Source of the DNA: Clostridia bacterium
GTDB lineage: Bacteria; Bacillota; Clostridia; Oscillospirales; CAG-272
NCBI GenBank assembly: GCA_017461365.1
Contig: JAFTYG010000071.1
Span: forward strand, 1-49,392
Direction of reading: 5' to 3'
Length of the DNA stretch: 49,392 bases
Shown here: positions 41,138 to 47,513 of the stretch, one piece after another
Numbering within the stretch: position 1 is the stretch's first letter
Layout: each line of letters begins with the position of its first letter
The notes under the pieces: generated by a model
Databases searched by the model: none
The model's input: only the letters and a program-made list of their open reading frames with translations
Told to the model about the DNA's origin: nothing
Translations under genes and position numbers: made by a program

Positions 41138-41875
41138 TTATCTGAAAAGCGTCATATCGGCACGTCGCACCGACGTCCTCATTATTGTGTAACATTCCTT
41201 TGTAGGATCTCCCGAAAGGATACCGCACTTCTGCTTCAATCCCGTAATAAGAAGCTCGGGATTGAGAAATTCTCCGACAGATGCCGAAAGCGTGGCCGAC
41301 ATTATAATTTTTCCATCGGCAAATCCGACGTCCGCAGACTTTATCAGAGGAACTATATCTATATCCTTCTCGCCCGACTTGGTCTTTTTGGTAAGCATCA
41401 GAGGAGAGGTCGTAAGAACGGATCTTATCTGCTCCGCCGTCTCCTTTGTCGCACCCTCTGTGCATATGTTTATGTCGTAGGTCGCATAAGCTATCTCGGA
41501 AAAATCCGAGGTCGGAATGTACGCGTCGGTAATGCACAGCTCGTCTGTAAGCTCGGCGTTTAGCCTCCTCATTATCTCCTCGGGAGACATATCTCTGTCT
41601 ATGCGAAGATCAAGAAATTCATACTCGCTCTCGCTTCCGACACTCAAAGGCGTTGAGAAAACGAGCTTTGCGTGAGGATTAAAGCCCTTTGTGTACCACG
41701 CGGGAATGCAAGCACGAACGATAACACGCATAAAAGTTCTTTGCAGATCAAGGTGCGAGATGTATTGCAGCTTTCCCACCTTTCGAAATTTCAGTCTGAC
41801 CGTCCACGGACGCTCAAGGGGGGGCAAGGATGCAAGCCTTTTCTTTTCATTCAATTTTTCAAATTCGGACAGCAC
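41138..41875 (-). CDS. DUF2344 radical-SAM-linked protein
   Basis: 245 residues. WTVRLKFRKVGKLQYISHLDLQR and PAWYTKGFNPHAKLVFSTPLSVG are signatures of the TIGR03936/DUF2344 family, which is always found with a TIGR03960-type radical SAM protein, sometimes fused to it. The start is GTG at 41875, with GGAGGTG 7 bp upstream, inside the 3' end of the radical SAM gene (25-bp overlap). Function unknown; the pairing suggests a shared modification task on tRNA or protein. Confidence 0.9.
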   Translation of the reverse strand: MLSEFEKLNEKKRLASLPPLERPWTVRLKFRKVGKLQYISHLDLQRTFMRVIVRACIPAWYTKGFNPHAKLVFSTPLSVGSESEYEFLDLRIDRDMSPEEIMRRLNAELTDELCITDAYIPTSDFSEIAYATYDINICTEGATKETAEQIRSVLTTSPLMLTKKTKSGEKDIDIVPLIKSADVGFADGKIIMSATLSASVGEFLNPELLITGLKQKCGILSGDPTKECYTIMRTSVRRADMTLFR

Positions 41876-43710
41876 GCTCTCTCACCTCCCAATTTATTCG
41901 CTCCGCATCCGCTGCATTTTTCACGGCAGTGGGGCGTTGTTGTCTCACCGTAAGCCTTGTCGCGCTCGCGGCGCATAAATTCCTTGCTTACGCCGCAGTC
42001 GATAATATCCCAAGGCAGTACCTCGTCAAGCCCGAAGGCGCGGTTTGCGTAGAACGCGGGATCTATACCCGTACGCTCAAATACAGAGATCCATTTGTCG
42101 TAGTCAAAGCACTCATCCCATGCGTCAAACATAAAGTTCTCCTCGCAGGCAAGCGCCAAAGCCCTCGAGAGCTTTCTGTCTCCTCTCGCAAGCACAGCCT
42201 CGATGCGGCTGACCTTCGCGTCGTGGTGGGTATATCTTATCTTCCTGTCGGTTATCTTGCTTGCAAGATACGCCTGCTTTTCCTCAAGCATCTCAAAGGT
42301 GTCCTGAGCCTCCCACTGGAACGGGGTAAAGGGCTTCGGGATAAAGCAGGAAACACTTATAGTCACCTGAGGCTTCTTTACCTTTCTGCCTGCCGCGCAC
42401 TTGTAATATTCATCTATAACGCTCTCCGCAAGCTTTGCAATTCCCTCAATATCGTCAAGCGTCTCGGTGGGAAGTCCTGACATAAAGTAGAGCTTTACCG
42501 TGTTCTTTCCCGCGTCAAACGCCACGCGAACAGCGCGCAAAAGATCCTCCTCACGCACGTTCTTGTTTATAACGTCACGCAACCTCTGCGTGCCCGCCTC
42601 GGGAGCAAAGGTCAAGGATGACGAGCGAACGGTGGCGATCTTATCCATCAGCTCCTTTGTAAAGCTGTCGACACGCAAAGAAGGCAGAGACAGACTCACC
42701 ATATTCTCATCCGTCCATTCAAGCAGATCGTCTGTAAGCTCCTCAAGATGCGTGTAGTCACTGATAGAGAGCGACGTAAGCGATATTTCATCATATCCCG
42801 TCGCCTCGTAAAGACACTTCGCCTGCTCGTTCAGCACCTCGGGCGACTTTTCACGGACAGGTCTGTATATCATTCCCGCCTGACAGAAGCGGCATCCGCG
42901 TATGCATCCTCTGAATACCTCAAGCATAACTCTGTCGTGTACCGTTTCGATATAAGGCATTACAAACTTTTTCGGGAAATACGCCTTGTCCATATCGGTG
43001 ATTATCCGCTTCGTTATCTTTGTGGGTATGTCGTCATATATAGGCGTGTAAGCCTTTACCGTACCGTCGTCATTGTAGGTAACGTCATAAAAGGACGGAA
43101 CGTAAACACCGCCTATAGTCCTTGCCGCCTCGTGAAGATACTCAGCCTTTGTGTATCTTCCCTCGTCCTTCATTTTTATGTACAGACGGCAAAGCTCGGG
43201 AAGAAGCTCCTCGCCCTCTCCAATATCGAAAAGATCGAAAAAGTCAGCCACAGGCTCGGCATTGTACGCACAAGGGCCTCCGCCGATAATTATGGGAAAG
43301 CTGTCGTCTCTGTCCTTTGCGTAAAGCGGTATCCCCGCAAGCTTCAGCATATTGAGCACGTTTGTGTAGCTCATCTCATATTGAAGCGTAAAGCCGACCA
43401 TATCAAATGCGGTAAGCGGATCTCCGCTCTCGCAGGCGGTAAGAGGAATATTGTACTCCCTCATTTTCTCCTGCATATCCACCCACGGATCGTACACCCT
43501 CTCGCACCACACGTCGGGCTCCTCGTTAAGCACACCGTAAAGTATCCTCAAGCCGAGGTTCGACATTCCTATCTCGTATGTGTCGGGAAAGCAAAAAGCA
43601 AATCTCGCCTTTACCTCCGACTTATCCTTTATTATCTGTCCGTACTCGCCGCCCGCGTATCTTCCGGGCTTTGAAACGGCTTTTAATATATTGCTTATAT
43701 TTTTGTTCAT
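41851..43710 (-). CDS. TIGR03960-type B12-binding radical SAM protein
   Basis: 619 residues. An N-terminal B12-binding-like domain (about 1-200), then the radical SAM centre CIRGCRFCQAG with Cys269, Cys273 and Cys276 in a CxxxCxxC. Later ISDYTHLEELTDDLL, SLPSLRVDSF and FYMSGLPTETLDDIEG-like KLYFMSGLPTET follow the barrel. A C-terminal cysteine cluster (HCREKCSGCG and ACCPN) is present. The reaction is unknown. It overlaps the P-type-like gene stop by 4 bp and DUF2344 by 25 bp. Confidence 0.9.
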   Translation of the reverse strand: MNKNISNILKAVSKPGRYAGGEYGQIIKDKSEVKARFAFCFPDTYEIGMSNLGLRILYGVLNEEPDVWCERVYDPWVDMQEKMREYNIPLTACESGDPLTAFDMVGFTLQYEMSYTNVLNMLKLAGIPLYAKDRDDSFPIIIGGGPCAYNAEPVADFFDLFDIGEGEELLPELCRLYIKMKDEGRYTKAEYLHEAARTIGGVYVPSFYDVTYNDDGTVKAYTPIYDDIPTKITKRIITDMDKAYFPKKFVMPYIETVHDRVMLEVFRGCIRGCRFCQAGMIYRPVREKSPEVLNEQAKCLYEATGYDEISLTSLSISDYTHLEELTDDLLEWTDENMVSLSLPSLRVDSFTKELMDKIATVRSSSLTFAPEAGTQRLRDVINKNVREEDLLRAVRVAFDAGKNTVKLYFMSGLPTETLDDIEGIAKLAESVIDEYYKCAAGRKVKKPQVTISVSCFIPKPFTPFQWEAQDTFEMLEEKQAYLASKITDRKIRYTHHDAKVSRIEAVLARGDRKLSRALALACEENFMFDAWDECFDYDKWISVFERTGIDPAFYANRAFGLDEVLPWDIIDCGVSKEFMRRERDKAYGETTTPHCREKCSGCGANKLGGERACCPNLKN

Positions 43711-46595
43711 TTGTCTTTCTTCCTGTTTTTTAATGTTTGCGACCGCTCGGCATCCTCACGCTCAAGCTCAGCCACCGAAAAATAATTCTTTTTCGGCAAA
43801 TATCCGAGCGTTATAAACAACAGCGCGCCGATGACCGCGAGTATGTAGAAAAGAAGCAGATATTGCATAAAGAAGGGCACCGCGGCAAATACCGAAACAA
43901 GTATGACCGCCAAAGCTCCGAGTCCCAAGGAGACATAAAGTACAATATCGTTTATCTTCTCTATTTTGCAGAGCCTTGCGCACCATACGACAGCCTCGGC
44001 AAGCTTCAGACGCGAGGAGACCGCGAGTATTCCGTGGTCCGAACGCTTCTTTGCCTTGCTTGCAATGCGGTTAATATCCGCCGCATTCTTGTGAACGACA
44101 CTTACGGGAGCTCTGCCCGCCTTGCGTTGCTTTGCCACAAAAGAAGTATTTATCATCGGATCGTAGGTCTCGATAACGCAGTGAATACCCTCCTTCGATA
44201 ACCGCTCGATGATCATATCGAAAAACGGCTCTACACAGTAAGCGGCAGTCAGCTTTGCCGTCGCTCTGCCGTCGAGAGATATATACAAAACGGCATTTTT
44301 GTCCGCTCCGATACCCTTGAGTCCCGCCTCCGAGCGAGGAAATTCAATTCCATATCTTCGCAAGAATTCAACGTCACCCACCACAAGCGTGTGGCTCTTG
44401 TCGACCACCGCCTCGATACCGCTTCTCGTTATCCTGCGGATGCGTATGCTCTTCGCCATGCAATCGTCGGGGATATTAGCAAATATCTCGCCCATAGGAC
44501 CTCCGATACGCGAATAAAGGATATTCAGCGCCGCAAGAACGTTCTTCATTTGCAGCTTTTCGTAGCAAACAAATCCAACGCGCTTCGGATCGCACTTTTT
44601 GAACAGATGCAGATCGTTGAATACTATCGCGTGCTCTGAGCCGTATTTTCTGATCATTTCTCGGCCCGTAAGAGCTATTCCGCGCTTTTTGAGGCGAAGC
44701 CCCGATAAGGACAGAGGCAGTGCGATAGCGGGAACCGCCGTCACAGGCAAAAGAGTCATTACAGCCGACATCGCGGCGATCGCGCCCTCCTCAAGCGTAT
44801 GCCCTGCTATCATAAGCGCGATGCACAAAAGAACACCCACGCCCACCGATAAAAGTATAAGCGACATAAATATTCCGTTTCCGAGAGCTCCGTCCTCACG
44901 TACCGCCTCCGAAAATCCCTTGGGAGAGGACACGGGAGAGAGCGAATATACCTTCTTGTCCTTGGAAAATCCGCCGCTGTACATCTTTTCGCCGATGGAG
45001 TCCTTGGATTTATCGTAAGAAAGCGTAAATCTTGCCACGTCGGTCGTAGAATAAAGATCGAACGCGCTCGCCTCCCTTATGCGCATAAGAAATTCATAAA
45101 GCGCAATTCCCGTAAGCACGGTACCGCAAATAAAATGGAAGGTCGGAGTATCAAACGGCTTGTAGCTGCCCGTTATAAAGAACACAACGTCGTAAACTAT
45201 GTTCGAGCAGACCATCACCACCGCCATTGAATATACGTTCGGATATACGGTAAGCAACCGCTTTATTCCGTCCCACATAGGTCTCCACAAGCATACCGCG
45301 CATATCAGAAGAAGCTGCGTGCCTATGATAACGTACGCCCCGGGGTAAAGAACGTAATCGGTAAGCCCCATAAACTCAACGTCAAATACGGGAAGCAGAT
45401 CGTAAAAGAACATAAAGACCGTCATAATAGCGCACGCCGTGAGCTTGAGAGCGGATATAACTATTCCCTTTTTGTAATCGTCGCGCTTCTTTTCCACCGC
45501 CTCGGCAGAAAAGCTCTCGTCCTTCTGCTCGCTCTCACCGCCAAACTGCCCGTATATGTCTCCGATGTCCTCCGCCGAAATATTTTCAAGCTCGTCCTCA
45601 CATCCGAGAGATGTCATCAACTTGCGTACCGAATTGTTTATTCTGTCCTCCTCGGTAGGAGAGTCGTCCGCAAAATCAGAGAGTATATCCCCAACGTCGG
45701 GAGTATCCTCCTCTTCGACCTCCTCAGGCTTTTCCTCCTCTATCGCCTTGGGAGACGGAATGGGATCGGGCTTGCCGTAATCCATCATAAGGGCCTTAAA
45801 GCTCTTCGGCTTCTCTTTTACTTCGAACGACGCCGCATAAGCATCAAAAGCGGACTTTTCCTCTTTTTCAGCCTTCTTGGGATCTTCTTTTGACTCTTCT
45901 TTTTGCTCTTCTTCGGGCGCTTCTTCTGTAATCTCAGCCCCGCTTTGCTCTTCGGACTCTTCTTCGAGGTGCTCATCCTCGGGCTCTTTTCGGGGCTCTT
46001 CATTTGGCGCTTTTTCAAAAATATCTTCCGCAAGTCCGTCTCCGAGCTCCTCTTGTGTAAGCTCACCTAAAGGCTCACCGTTCGACTCCTCTTTAAGAAG
46101 CTCGTCAAATATCTCATCTGCCTCATCATCAAGCACTTCAAAAGCCTCTTCCCCGTCGTTCTCTTCGACGGTCTCCTCTTCAACAACGTCCTCTTCGAAA
46201 AGCTCCTCTTCGACAGTCTCCTCTTCGACAACGTCCTCTTCGAAAGCCTCTTCCTCGACTTCCTCGGCAGACGACTCCTCCTCGAGCTCAAGAGTAGCAA
46301 CAGGCGATAAATAACGCAAGCGTAAGCCTTCATCCTCGACGGCGACTTCATCCTTTATCGCCTCCGAAAACTCGGCAAGAAAGTCGCTGTCGAGATCATA
46401 TGTACCGTCGCTTTCGTGCTTACCCGAAGCCCCGTCCGAAAAATAACGCTCTTCGAGCTTTTTTTGCAGATCCTCCGTGGAAATATCGGCGTTTTCGCTG
46501 TCGAGATCATTCAAGACCGCGTCGCTGTCCGATAGATTATCTACCGATTCTTGTAACGATCTCATCATCTCATAAAGATTTTGTTCGTTACTCAT
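43707..46595 (-). CDS. P-type-ATPase-like membrane protein lacking the catalytic Asp
   Basis: 962 residues. Residues about 100-310 are a Glu-rich, low-complexity cytoplasmic tail. About eight membrane helices follow: roughly 376-398, 416-437, 454-475, 484-504, 573-597, 604-630, 883-905 and 908-930. The loop after helix six reads LLPVTAVPA then RKYGSEHAIVFNDLHL (649-664), which aligns with the P-type pattern ending in VFDKTGTLT, but the phospho-acceptor DKTGT is replaced by NDLHL. Residues 768-812 (VLYISLDGRATAKLTAAY, then IHCVIETYDP) align with the hinge ending in TGDN, again without the key residues. This suggests a fold without ATPase cycling. I infer regulatory or binding function; the substrate is unknown. 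Confidence 0.6.
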   Translation of the reverse strand: MSNEQNLYEMMRSLQESVDNLSDSDAVLNDLDSENADISTEDLQKKLEERYFSDGASGKHESDGTYDLDSDFLAEFSEAIKDEVAVEDEGLRLRYLSPVATLELEEESSAEEVEEEAFEEDVVEEETVEEELFEEDVVEEETVEENDGEEAFEVLDDEADEIFDELLKEESNGEPLGELTQEELGDGLAEDIFEKAPNEEPRKEPEDEHLEEESEEQSGAEITEEAPEEEQKEESKEDPKKAEKEEKSAFDAYAASFEVKEKPKSFKALMMDYGKPDPIPSPKAIEEEKPEEVEEEDTPDVGDILSDFADDSPTEEDRINNSVRKLMTSLGCEDELENISAEDIGDIYGQFGGESEQKDESFSAEAVEKKRDDYKKGIVISALKLTACAIMTVFMFFYDLLPVFDVEFMGLTDYVLYPGAYVIIGTQLLLICAVCLWRPMWDGIKRLLTVYPNVYSMAVVMVCSNIVYDVVFFITGSYKPFDTPTFHFICGTVLTGIALYEFLMRIREASAFDLYSTTDVARFTLSYDKSKDSIGEKMYSGGFSKDKKVYSLSPVSSPKGFSEAVREDGALGNGIFMSLILLSVGVGVLLCIALMIAGHTLEEGAIAAMSAVMTLLPVTAVPAIALPLSLSGLRLKKRGIALTGREMIRKYGSEHAIVFNDLHLFKKCDPKRVGFVCYEKLQMKNVLAALNILYSRIGGPMGEIFANIPDDCMAKSIRIRRITRSGIEAVVDKSHTLVVGDVEFLRRYGIEFPRSEAGLKGIGADKNAVLYISLDGRATAKLTAAYCVEPFFDMIIERLSKEGIHCVIETYDPMINTSFVAKQRKAGRAPVSVVHKNAADINRIASKAKKRSDHGILAVSSRLKLAEAVVWCARLCKIEKINDIVLYVSLGLGALAVILVSVFAAVPFFMQYLLLFYILAVIGALLFITLGYLPKKNYFSVAELEREDAERSQTLKNRKKDK
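46161..46250 (-). repeat. 45-bp tandem repeat coding the Glu-rich tail
   Basis: Two adjacent near-identical 45-bp units (46161-46205 and 46206-46250) encode FEEDVVEEETVEEEL twice. They explain part of the acidic stretch and are a likely site of length change. Confidence 0.8.
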
Positions 46596-46622: not shown

Positions 46623-47447
46623 TCATTTCACTCTGTGCTGTCTCGAGATCTCCGCCATAAGCACCGATGCTGCCGTCGACACGTTAAAGGAATTGACGTG
46701 TCCGTACATGGGTATCGAAACTATAAAATCAGACTTTTCCTTTATCAGATGCGAAACTCCGTCTCCCTCGCTGCCCATAACGAGAGCGCAAGGACAGTCA
46801 AAATCGGTGTCGTAATAAGCCTTGCCGCCCGCCTCAGCCGCAAATATCCATACACCCTGCTTCTTCAGCTCCTCAATAGTCGAAGCAAGATTTGTGACCT
46901 TGGCTATGGCAAGATGCTCGATAGCTCCGCAGGACGCCTTCGTCACCGCAGGGGTAAGTCCTACCGCGCGGCGCTTGGGGATAATAAGTCCGTGAGCCCC
47001 GACACCCTCCGCGCAACGTATGAGGGCGCCGAGATTGTGCGGATCGGTTATACCGTCAGCGATAATGATAAAGGGCTTTTCCCCTCTCTCACGTGCGATT
47101 TCAAGAATATCCTCGACCGAGCAATATTCCTTTTCCGCCGCCATCGCAACGATTCCCTGATGAACGGCAAAATCGGTCATCTTGTCAAGCTTTGCGCGGT
47201 CGGTTTCGATGATCGGTATATGTCTCTCAACAGCCTCGGCAACGAGCACAACTATAGAGCCCTCGCGCTCGCCGCGCTGAACGTATATCTTGTCAACGGC
47301 TCTGCCCGACTTCAAGAGCTCTCTTACGGCGTTTCTGCCTATAACAAGCCCCTCAGAGACCTCACCGTCTCTGTTTTCCCTTTCGCGTACTCCGCGGTCG
47401 GGAATGCGTTTTTTCTTATCGTTAAAGTTCTTTTTTCTGTTTTCCAT
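46623..47447 (-). CDS. rlmB: 23S rRNA (guanosine 2'-O)-methyltransferase
   Basis: 274 residues. A basic N-terminal extension (about 1-35), an L30e-like substrate domain (IGRNAVRELLKSGRAVDKIYV), then the SpoU/TrmH domain with motif 1 DPHNLGALIRCAEGVG, motif 2 LVMGSEGDGVS and motif 3 IPMYGHVNSFNVSTAASVL. It methylates a guanosine ribose, G2251 in the E. coli enzyme. GAGG lies 5 bp upstream of the ATG. It is first in a five-gene minus-strand run with the P-type-like protein, 27 bp upstream of it. Confidence 0.93.
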   Translation of the reverse strand: MENRKKNFNDKKKRIPDRGVRERENRDGEVSEGLVIGRNAVRELLKSGRAVDKIYVQRGEREGSIVVLVAEAVERHIPIIETDRAKLDKMTDFAVHQGIVAMAAEKEYCSVEDILEIARERGEKPFIIIADGITDPHNLGALIRCAEGVGAHGLIIPKRRAVGLTPAVTKASCGAIEHLAIAKVTNLASTIEELKKQGVWIFAAEAGGKAYYDTDFDCPCALVMGSEGDGVSHLIKEKSDFIVSIPMYGHVNSFNVSTAASVLMAEISRQHRVK

Positions 47448-47484: not shown

Positions 47485-47513
47485 ATTATAACATAAAAAT
47501 CGGATTTTGTATA
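47485..47513 (-). promoter_or_regulatory. Promoter of the rlmB operon
   Basis: Minus strand: -35 TATACA (47508-47513), 17-bp spacer, -10 TATAAT (47485-47490). Confidence 0.65.

Follow-up and report, generated by a model that had tools for sequence, protein, structure and literature searches.

A conserved family of P-type-ATPase-like membrane proteins without the catalytic motifs, encoded next to rlmB in one order of Clostridia

P-type ATPases are a textbook family of pumps, in the active members of which DKTGT is the phosphorylation motif and TGDN and GDGxND are hinge motifs; active pumps of the P1B type carry TGE in the actuator domain, a CPC/CPx metal site in M4, and HP in the N-domain. The protein described here, hereafter PAT, aligns with the P1B-type (CopA-like) ATPases (TIGR01525; PDB code 3rfu) along the plan of both the membrane region and the P/N headpiece, but it differs from them in having no DKTGT, GDGIND/GDGVND, N-domain HP, or CPC, with TGE present in a single one of 69 family members. 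A retained fold, lost catalysis, and a conserved family are also features of pseudoenzymes in general (for reviews, PMC5106787 and PMC10211241); the difference is that we found no described P-type ATPase example among these in the literature. Nor did the literature, taken without most subscription journals, yield a description of a conserved family of dead P-type ATPases. As far as this literature shows, PAT would be an undescribed conserved bacterial family of pseudo-P-type ATPases, one that offers a clean test of the role of a pump scaffold without pumping and, in a peptide shared by the tails of its members, a direct handle on its partner.

The window, i.e., the whole stretch of 49,392 nucleotides that was analyzed, encodes PAT on the minus strand at positions 43707 to 46595 as an open reading frame of 962 aa with an ATG start. 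It is preceded on the same strand by rlmB, the gene for the 23S rRNA (guanosine2251) methyltransferase (46623 to 47447; TIGR00186, E = 5.9e-69), the end of which lies 27 nt from the PAT start, and is followed by a TIGR03960 radical SAM gene (41851 to 43710, minus strand; E = 5.1e-282) that overlaps the PAT stop by 4 nt and then by a TIGR03936/DUF2344 radical-SAM-associated gene (41138 to 41875, minus strand). Upstream of rlmB, a promoter-like match (47485 to 47513, minus strand; 10/12, with TG before the second hexamer) is a match to the consensus only, and such matches in this region show no excess over shuffled sequences (6 found, 7.1 expected). The sole minus-strand terminator-like match between rlmB and the later genes lies inside the PAT gene; for the two strands together, 9 terminator-like matches compare with 6.2 expected.

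Searches with PAT as a single sequence returned only faint traces of its kinship: the NCBIfam model TIGR01525 matched at E = 1.8e-4, far under its cut-off (exceeded by two further proteins of the same genome), the best PDB match had an E value of 0.11, and Pfam offered no fitting model (best E = 0.2). Family profiles were far more decisive. A profile-profile comparison of the PAT family with 14 genuine P1B ATPases by hhalign gave a probability of 99.96 (E = 6e-39) over 562 columns, and the family profile matched the copper efflux ATPase of PDB code 3rfu at E = 1.5e-37 over profile positions 198 to 472, with weak extra matches flanking the main one in collinear order. Two regions account for the large gaps in the hhalign alignment, namely, the actuator domain up to and over the TG of TGES and the segment of the P-domain with GDGIND. 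The hydropathy peaks and the hhalign alignment are, at the level of sequence, in line with the eight-helix 2+2+A+2+PN+2 plan and the three-domain fold, and one hydrophobic pair (44694 to 44861, minus strand) corresponds to M3-M4 of the P1B pumps, with Pro617 present and no CPC. Given these family profiles, and notwithstanding the weak single-sequence matches, the P-type kinship of PAT is judged not to be due to chance, and PAT is classified on the alignments as a full-length relative of the P1B-type (copper) ATPases. The order of fold elements that an earlier note had read from the window agrees with the profile alignments.

To delimit the family, we used genome samples with one genome per species. 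With an order-wide profile at a threshold of E <= 1e-48, PAT is found in 241 of the 247 genomes sampled from its order, representing 136 of 137 genera, and it is thus kept near-universally across one order of Clostridia. In a sample of the class (293 genomes), the same order has 15 genomes, of which 14 gave full-length PAT matches (E <= 1.5e-91; the remaining one, G122, reached only 9.8e-23), and the 278 genomes of other orders have none at E <= 1e-48, their best match being partial (8.6e-44). Likewise, the 197 genomes from outside the order in a phylum-wide sample of 199 have no PAT at this threshold (best, 7.7e-43); by absence we mean that nothing matched at E <= 1e-48, and a strongly diverged member could be concealed among the matches to pumps. 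The best 24 matches from outside the order (L153 to L176), when translated, all have DKTGT. The single-sequence search was coarser: it matched 28 of 40 genomes, including the window's own, and at least one of these matches (L028, in G030) is a true pump; within the genus it matched 21 of 25 genomes, the four misses being 55 to 77% complete. In a tree of 40 rows, the 23 sampled PATs fall together in a single clade (100/100), although the branches are long and the program warns of false joins; this clade points to a single origin of the PATs.

Motifs were counted in 69 aligned PATs (including 14 from the window's genus), these being the 71 rows of the alignment minus two true CopA matches (L112 and L136) that were excluded and serve as controls, with DKTG, TGE, and GDGxND all present. 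None of the 69 PATs has DKTG at the phosphorylation site. The position of the phosphorylated Asp is occupied by Asp in 22, Thr in 10, Arg in 9, Ser in 8, Lys in 6, Ala in 5, Asn in 4, and other residues in 5, and where it is Asp, KTG never follows; the DKTG string of one member (L089) lies elsewhere in its frame, with DAKDLF at the phosphorylation site. In the window, NDLHLF (residues 660 to 665; 44601 to 44618, minus strand) is placed at the DKTGTI position by alignment with genuine CopA proteins, where the earlier note had located N660-D661. The same alignment places TYDP (residues 810 to 813; 44157 to 44168, minus strand), again as read before within ETYDP, at the TGDN position with the Thr and the Asp retained; no Gly was found among the residues counted at the second position of this motif in the aligned PATs. 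GDGIND or GDGVND occurs in none of the 69. The actuator region is about 65 residues shorter in PATs, the stretch corresponding to window residues 500 to 600 comprising 83 to 117 residues as against 162 to 163 in the two controls, and the lone TGE in this short region (L111) looks like chance. The N-domain HP is missing around residues 698 to 700 in all 69, four of which have His alone at position 698; CPC is likewise missing in all 69, with Cys before Pro617 in four, after it in one, and on both sides in none. The loss of these motifs would argue against ATP-driven transport by PAT. The view that a pump scaffold has been kept without its catalytic residues is supported by the family profiles, by the constant absence of DKTGT from all 69 members, and by retention in 241 of 247 genomes, and the search for homologs with an intact DKTGT at this site, which could have overturned it, recovered none among the 69.

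Ahead of the pump-like body, PAT has an N-terminal tail (residues 1 to 370; 45486 to 46595, minus strand) that is 36% Asp plus Glu (133 D/E and 31 K/R); no hydrophobic segment was found in these 370 residues, the first one starting at residue 376. The long Glu-rich tail with a 45-bp tandem repeat (46161 to 46259, minus strand; 2.2 copies, 88% matches, 15-bp subperiod) noted earlier is present in the window's PAT, but strong Glu richness does not extend beyond the genus, outside which the tail is usually long and less acidic. Within the genus, the Glu-rich tails are highly repetitive (e.g., window positions 46161 to 46259 and loci L033 and L034). In several assemblies, a contig ends between rlmB and the PAT core, and such repeats are perhaps the cause.

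The extreme N terminus (residues 1 to 20; 46536 to 46595, minus strand) carries a short amphipathic peptide that, across the family, has the form [FY]S[ILV]DDILxE or a related one. The strict pattern occurs in 30 of 58 PAT N termini as against 0.9 expected from shuffles, and many of the other 28 have a looser DELL/DDLL form by eye; among 934 neighborhood open reading frames it occurs in 19, all of which are PATs. Variants include NIDDILKLL in sister species and the YSVDDILAE type in other families, and the peptide of the window's own species (NLYEMMRSL) is degenerate, with no match to the peptide profile in its genome at E <= 0.005.

Near-universal retention behind rlmB without the pumping parts probably implies a structural or regulatory job for PAT. 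A sensor, regulator, or structural partner, as the earlier note proposed, would be of this kind, and among such roles we tentatively place first, as nearly an even call, that PAT could be a scaffold that sits in the membrane without pumping and docks by its tail. The former pump body would anchor it in the membrane; the remodeled P/N headpiece, with its near-constant Asp812 and a new xDxxLF motif, would offer a surface for binding instead of an active site; and the tail, which is long and begins with the amphipathic DDIL-type peptide, would dock on a cytoplasmic partner, which might recruit other envelope proteins bearing such a peptide. Expression would be borrowed from the housekeeping gene rlmB via cotranscription. 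The P1B homology, the motif losses in 69 members, the constraint on Asp812, Asp661, and Phe665, the single clade, the linkage to rlmB, and the recurrent peptide speak for this reading; the degenerate peptide of the window's species and the 28 N termini lacking the strict pattern speak against it.

The residues that the headpiece has retained or newly fixed could be read differently. The TGDN Asp (Asp812) is kept in 66 of 67 PATs (two further rows have a gap), and glycines 726 and 740 of the N-domain are invariant in a 37-row alignment; at the former DKTGT site, position 661 is Asp in 54 of 69 PATs, position 663 is Asp, Glu, or His in 62, and position 665 is Phe in 61, the common form being xDxDLFP and that of the window's genus xDLHLF. 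Asp812 and the glycines could make up a ligand site and PAT thereby a sensor rather than a scaffold: a membrane transceptor, the dead headpiece of which would bind a metal ion, a nucleotide, or another ligand via Asp812 and the xD-x-(D/E/H)-LF site and signal through the tail. The recurrence of acidic residues and His at these positions speaks for this reading, but both the HP of the N-domain and the CPC are gone from all 69 members, and clustering of 34 loci brought out no recurrent output domain or regulator gene beside PAT, so that we consider it unlikely.

Returning from the scaffold to its genomic setting, the most constant feature is rlmB, which lies directly upstream on the same strand in 65 of the 69 PAT loci; in the remaining four (L033, L040, L106, and L124) the PAT frame leaves the contig. 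Among the matches listed, with coordinates from two genome searches (seven of the PAT coordinates being from the class sample), rlmB is directly upstream of PAT in 94 of 98 genomes. In the four exceptions (G085, G075, G151, and G216), rlmB and the PAT match are on different contigs; three of these (G085, G075, and G151) are explained by the end of the contig, near which rlmB lies with a PAT-type peptide immediately behind it. Six genomes were counted as being without PAT, and five of these are without rlmB as well (Fisher P = 1.7e-8); one genome so counted (G050) has a PAT-type peptide right behind rlmB. Of the two genes that the earlier note placed in one operon with PAT, rlmB is the neighbor kept across the order, and TIGR03960 is not: the stretches fetched for the 69 PAT loci include the TIGR03960 and TIGR03936/DUF2344 genes in 20 cases (18 of 34 by a cruder clustering). 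Nineteen of these loci, the window among them, are of the window's own family and one (L129) is of another, and TIGR03960 was discarded as a general partner of PAT. When the 34 loci were clustered by BLAST, no neighbor cluster besides rlmB was in more than 18 and none beyond rlmB, PAT, radical SAM, and DUF2344 in more than 6. In two genomes, rlmB is in unusually long frames of 682 and 863 aa (G030:C7:60273-60995 and G112:C27:13633-14355), possibly fusions.

This linkage, together with the lack of any comparably frequent neighbor and the shared absence of both genes, would be accounted for if PAT were a ribosome-linked factor acting with RlmB, e.g., by keeping nascent membrane proteins or the assembly of ribosomes close to the membrane; basic C-terminal tails in several members of the genus point the same way. 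But these tails are confined to that genus among the 69 PATs, the others stopping at most 8 residues past the reference column, which weakens a ribosome tether via such a tail; the joint absence of two adjacent genes can reflect one deletion or assembly gap, and cotranscription with rlmB may have no functional meaning. We regard a role of this kind as rather improbable.

The old membrane domain could, finally, have stayed in use as an ATP-independent channel, carrier, or lipid-contact protein. The window's PAT has the hydrophobic segments, and the M4 proline (Pro617) is retained in 56 of 69 members, but CPC is in none, and the columns of the order-wide alignment that are invariant or almost so (726, 740, 786, and 812) are in the headpiece and not in the membrane segments; this makes such a function distinctly improbable. 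That PAT is a decaying pump gene or an annotation artefact has a negligible probability, the lost catalytic motifs and two frames split in two (L041 and L134) notwithstanding, given that its retention in 241 of 247 genomes argues against decay of the family and that its members have new motifs in common.

For the scaffold with a docking tail, the distribution of the peptide in other proteins is of interest. Its profile found 50 matches in 44 of 157 genomes, 38 of them beside rlmB or a PAT core on the same contig, 11 elsewhere, and one (G142) that could not be placed. Of the 11, all of which were read, four resemble VanW/PG_binding_4/G5 proteins (Pfam confirms two, L198 and L200), one is a signal peptidase II (LspA) with the peptide at the C terminus, one is an ABC-2 permease, one (L203) is a membrane protein with the look of a signal peptidase, a C-terminal peptide, and no firm Pfam match, and one (L201) is a fragment without identity; a further two, the HTH-like L197 and L202 (MazG-like by eye), have the appearance of chance matches. 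A peptide of the DDIL type ends N- or C-terminal tails of membrane proteins (LspA, signal-peptidase-like, ABC-2 permease, and VanW-like) at L196 (404 to 1357, plus strand), L203 (1830 to 2708, minus strand), L187 (247 to 1557, minus strand), L198, L200, L204, and L205. A short peptide of this sort can be common to proteins by chance or composition.

The last of the 11 represents a second dead P-type ATPase. Two genomes of genus g46, which belongs to the same order as the window, were found to encode it (L199/L206, G058:C9:39537-41588; L207, G161:C23). It shares with PAT the N-terminal peptide type and the loss of the phosphorylation Asp, the site reading NKTGT in L199 and SLSGT in L207; unlike PAT, it has an intact TGDN, and in G058 it does not share a contig with the copy linked to rlmB. 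In the tree it groups with Zn/Cd-type P1B pumps, and so it apparently had an origin separate from that of PAT. Among 12 loci read, only those of G058 and G161 have this protein, and nine others have DKTGT. The remaining locus encodes a P1B-like protein (L208, G235:C1:1092972-1094153) in which the usual motifs are replaced by DKTGV, TGDK, and GDGVAD.

A broader proposal, which we hold to be something of a long shot, is that the DDIL-type peptide might be a code by which this order gathers envelope proteins on one cytoplasmic hub, with the rlmB-linked dead pump either anchoring this hub in the membrane or being the most general of its clients; dead pumps would have been born at least twice independently with the same tag, and, the peptide resembling the C-terminal peptide of the order's FtsZ, the hub may be a reader of FtsZ tails in the divisome. 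A small score matrix of FtsZ C termini, the ends being placed by rules of our own (which favors a match) and those of the window's genus being left out, put 26 of 58 PAT N termini above the level that 95% of shuffles stay below, where about 2.9 would be expected; 10% of 493 other genes also exceeded it. In the window's genus, the FtsZ copies end differently (GFDVDDFF and LDDFFG), so that peptide and FtsZ tail do not go together there. Two neighboring ftsZ genes with different C-terminal ends were observed at G000:C55:8359-10509 (L225) and also in G010, G059, and G129.
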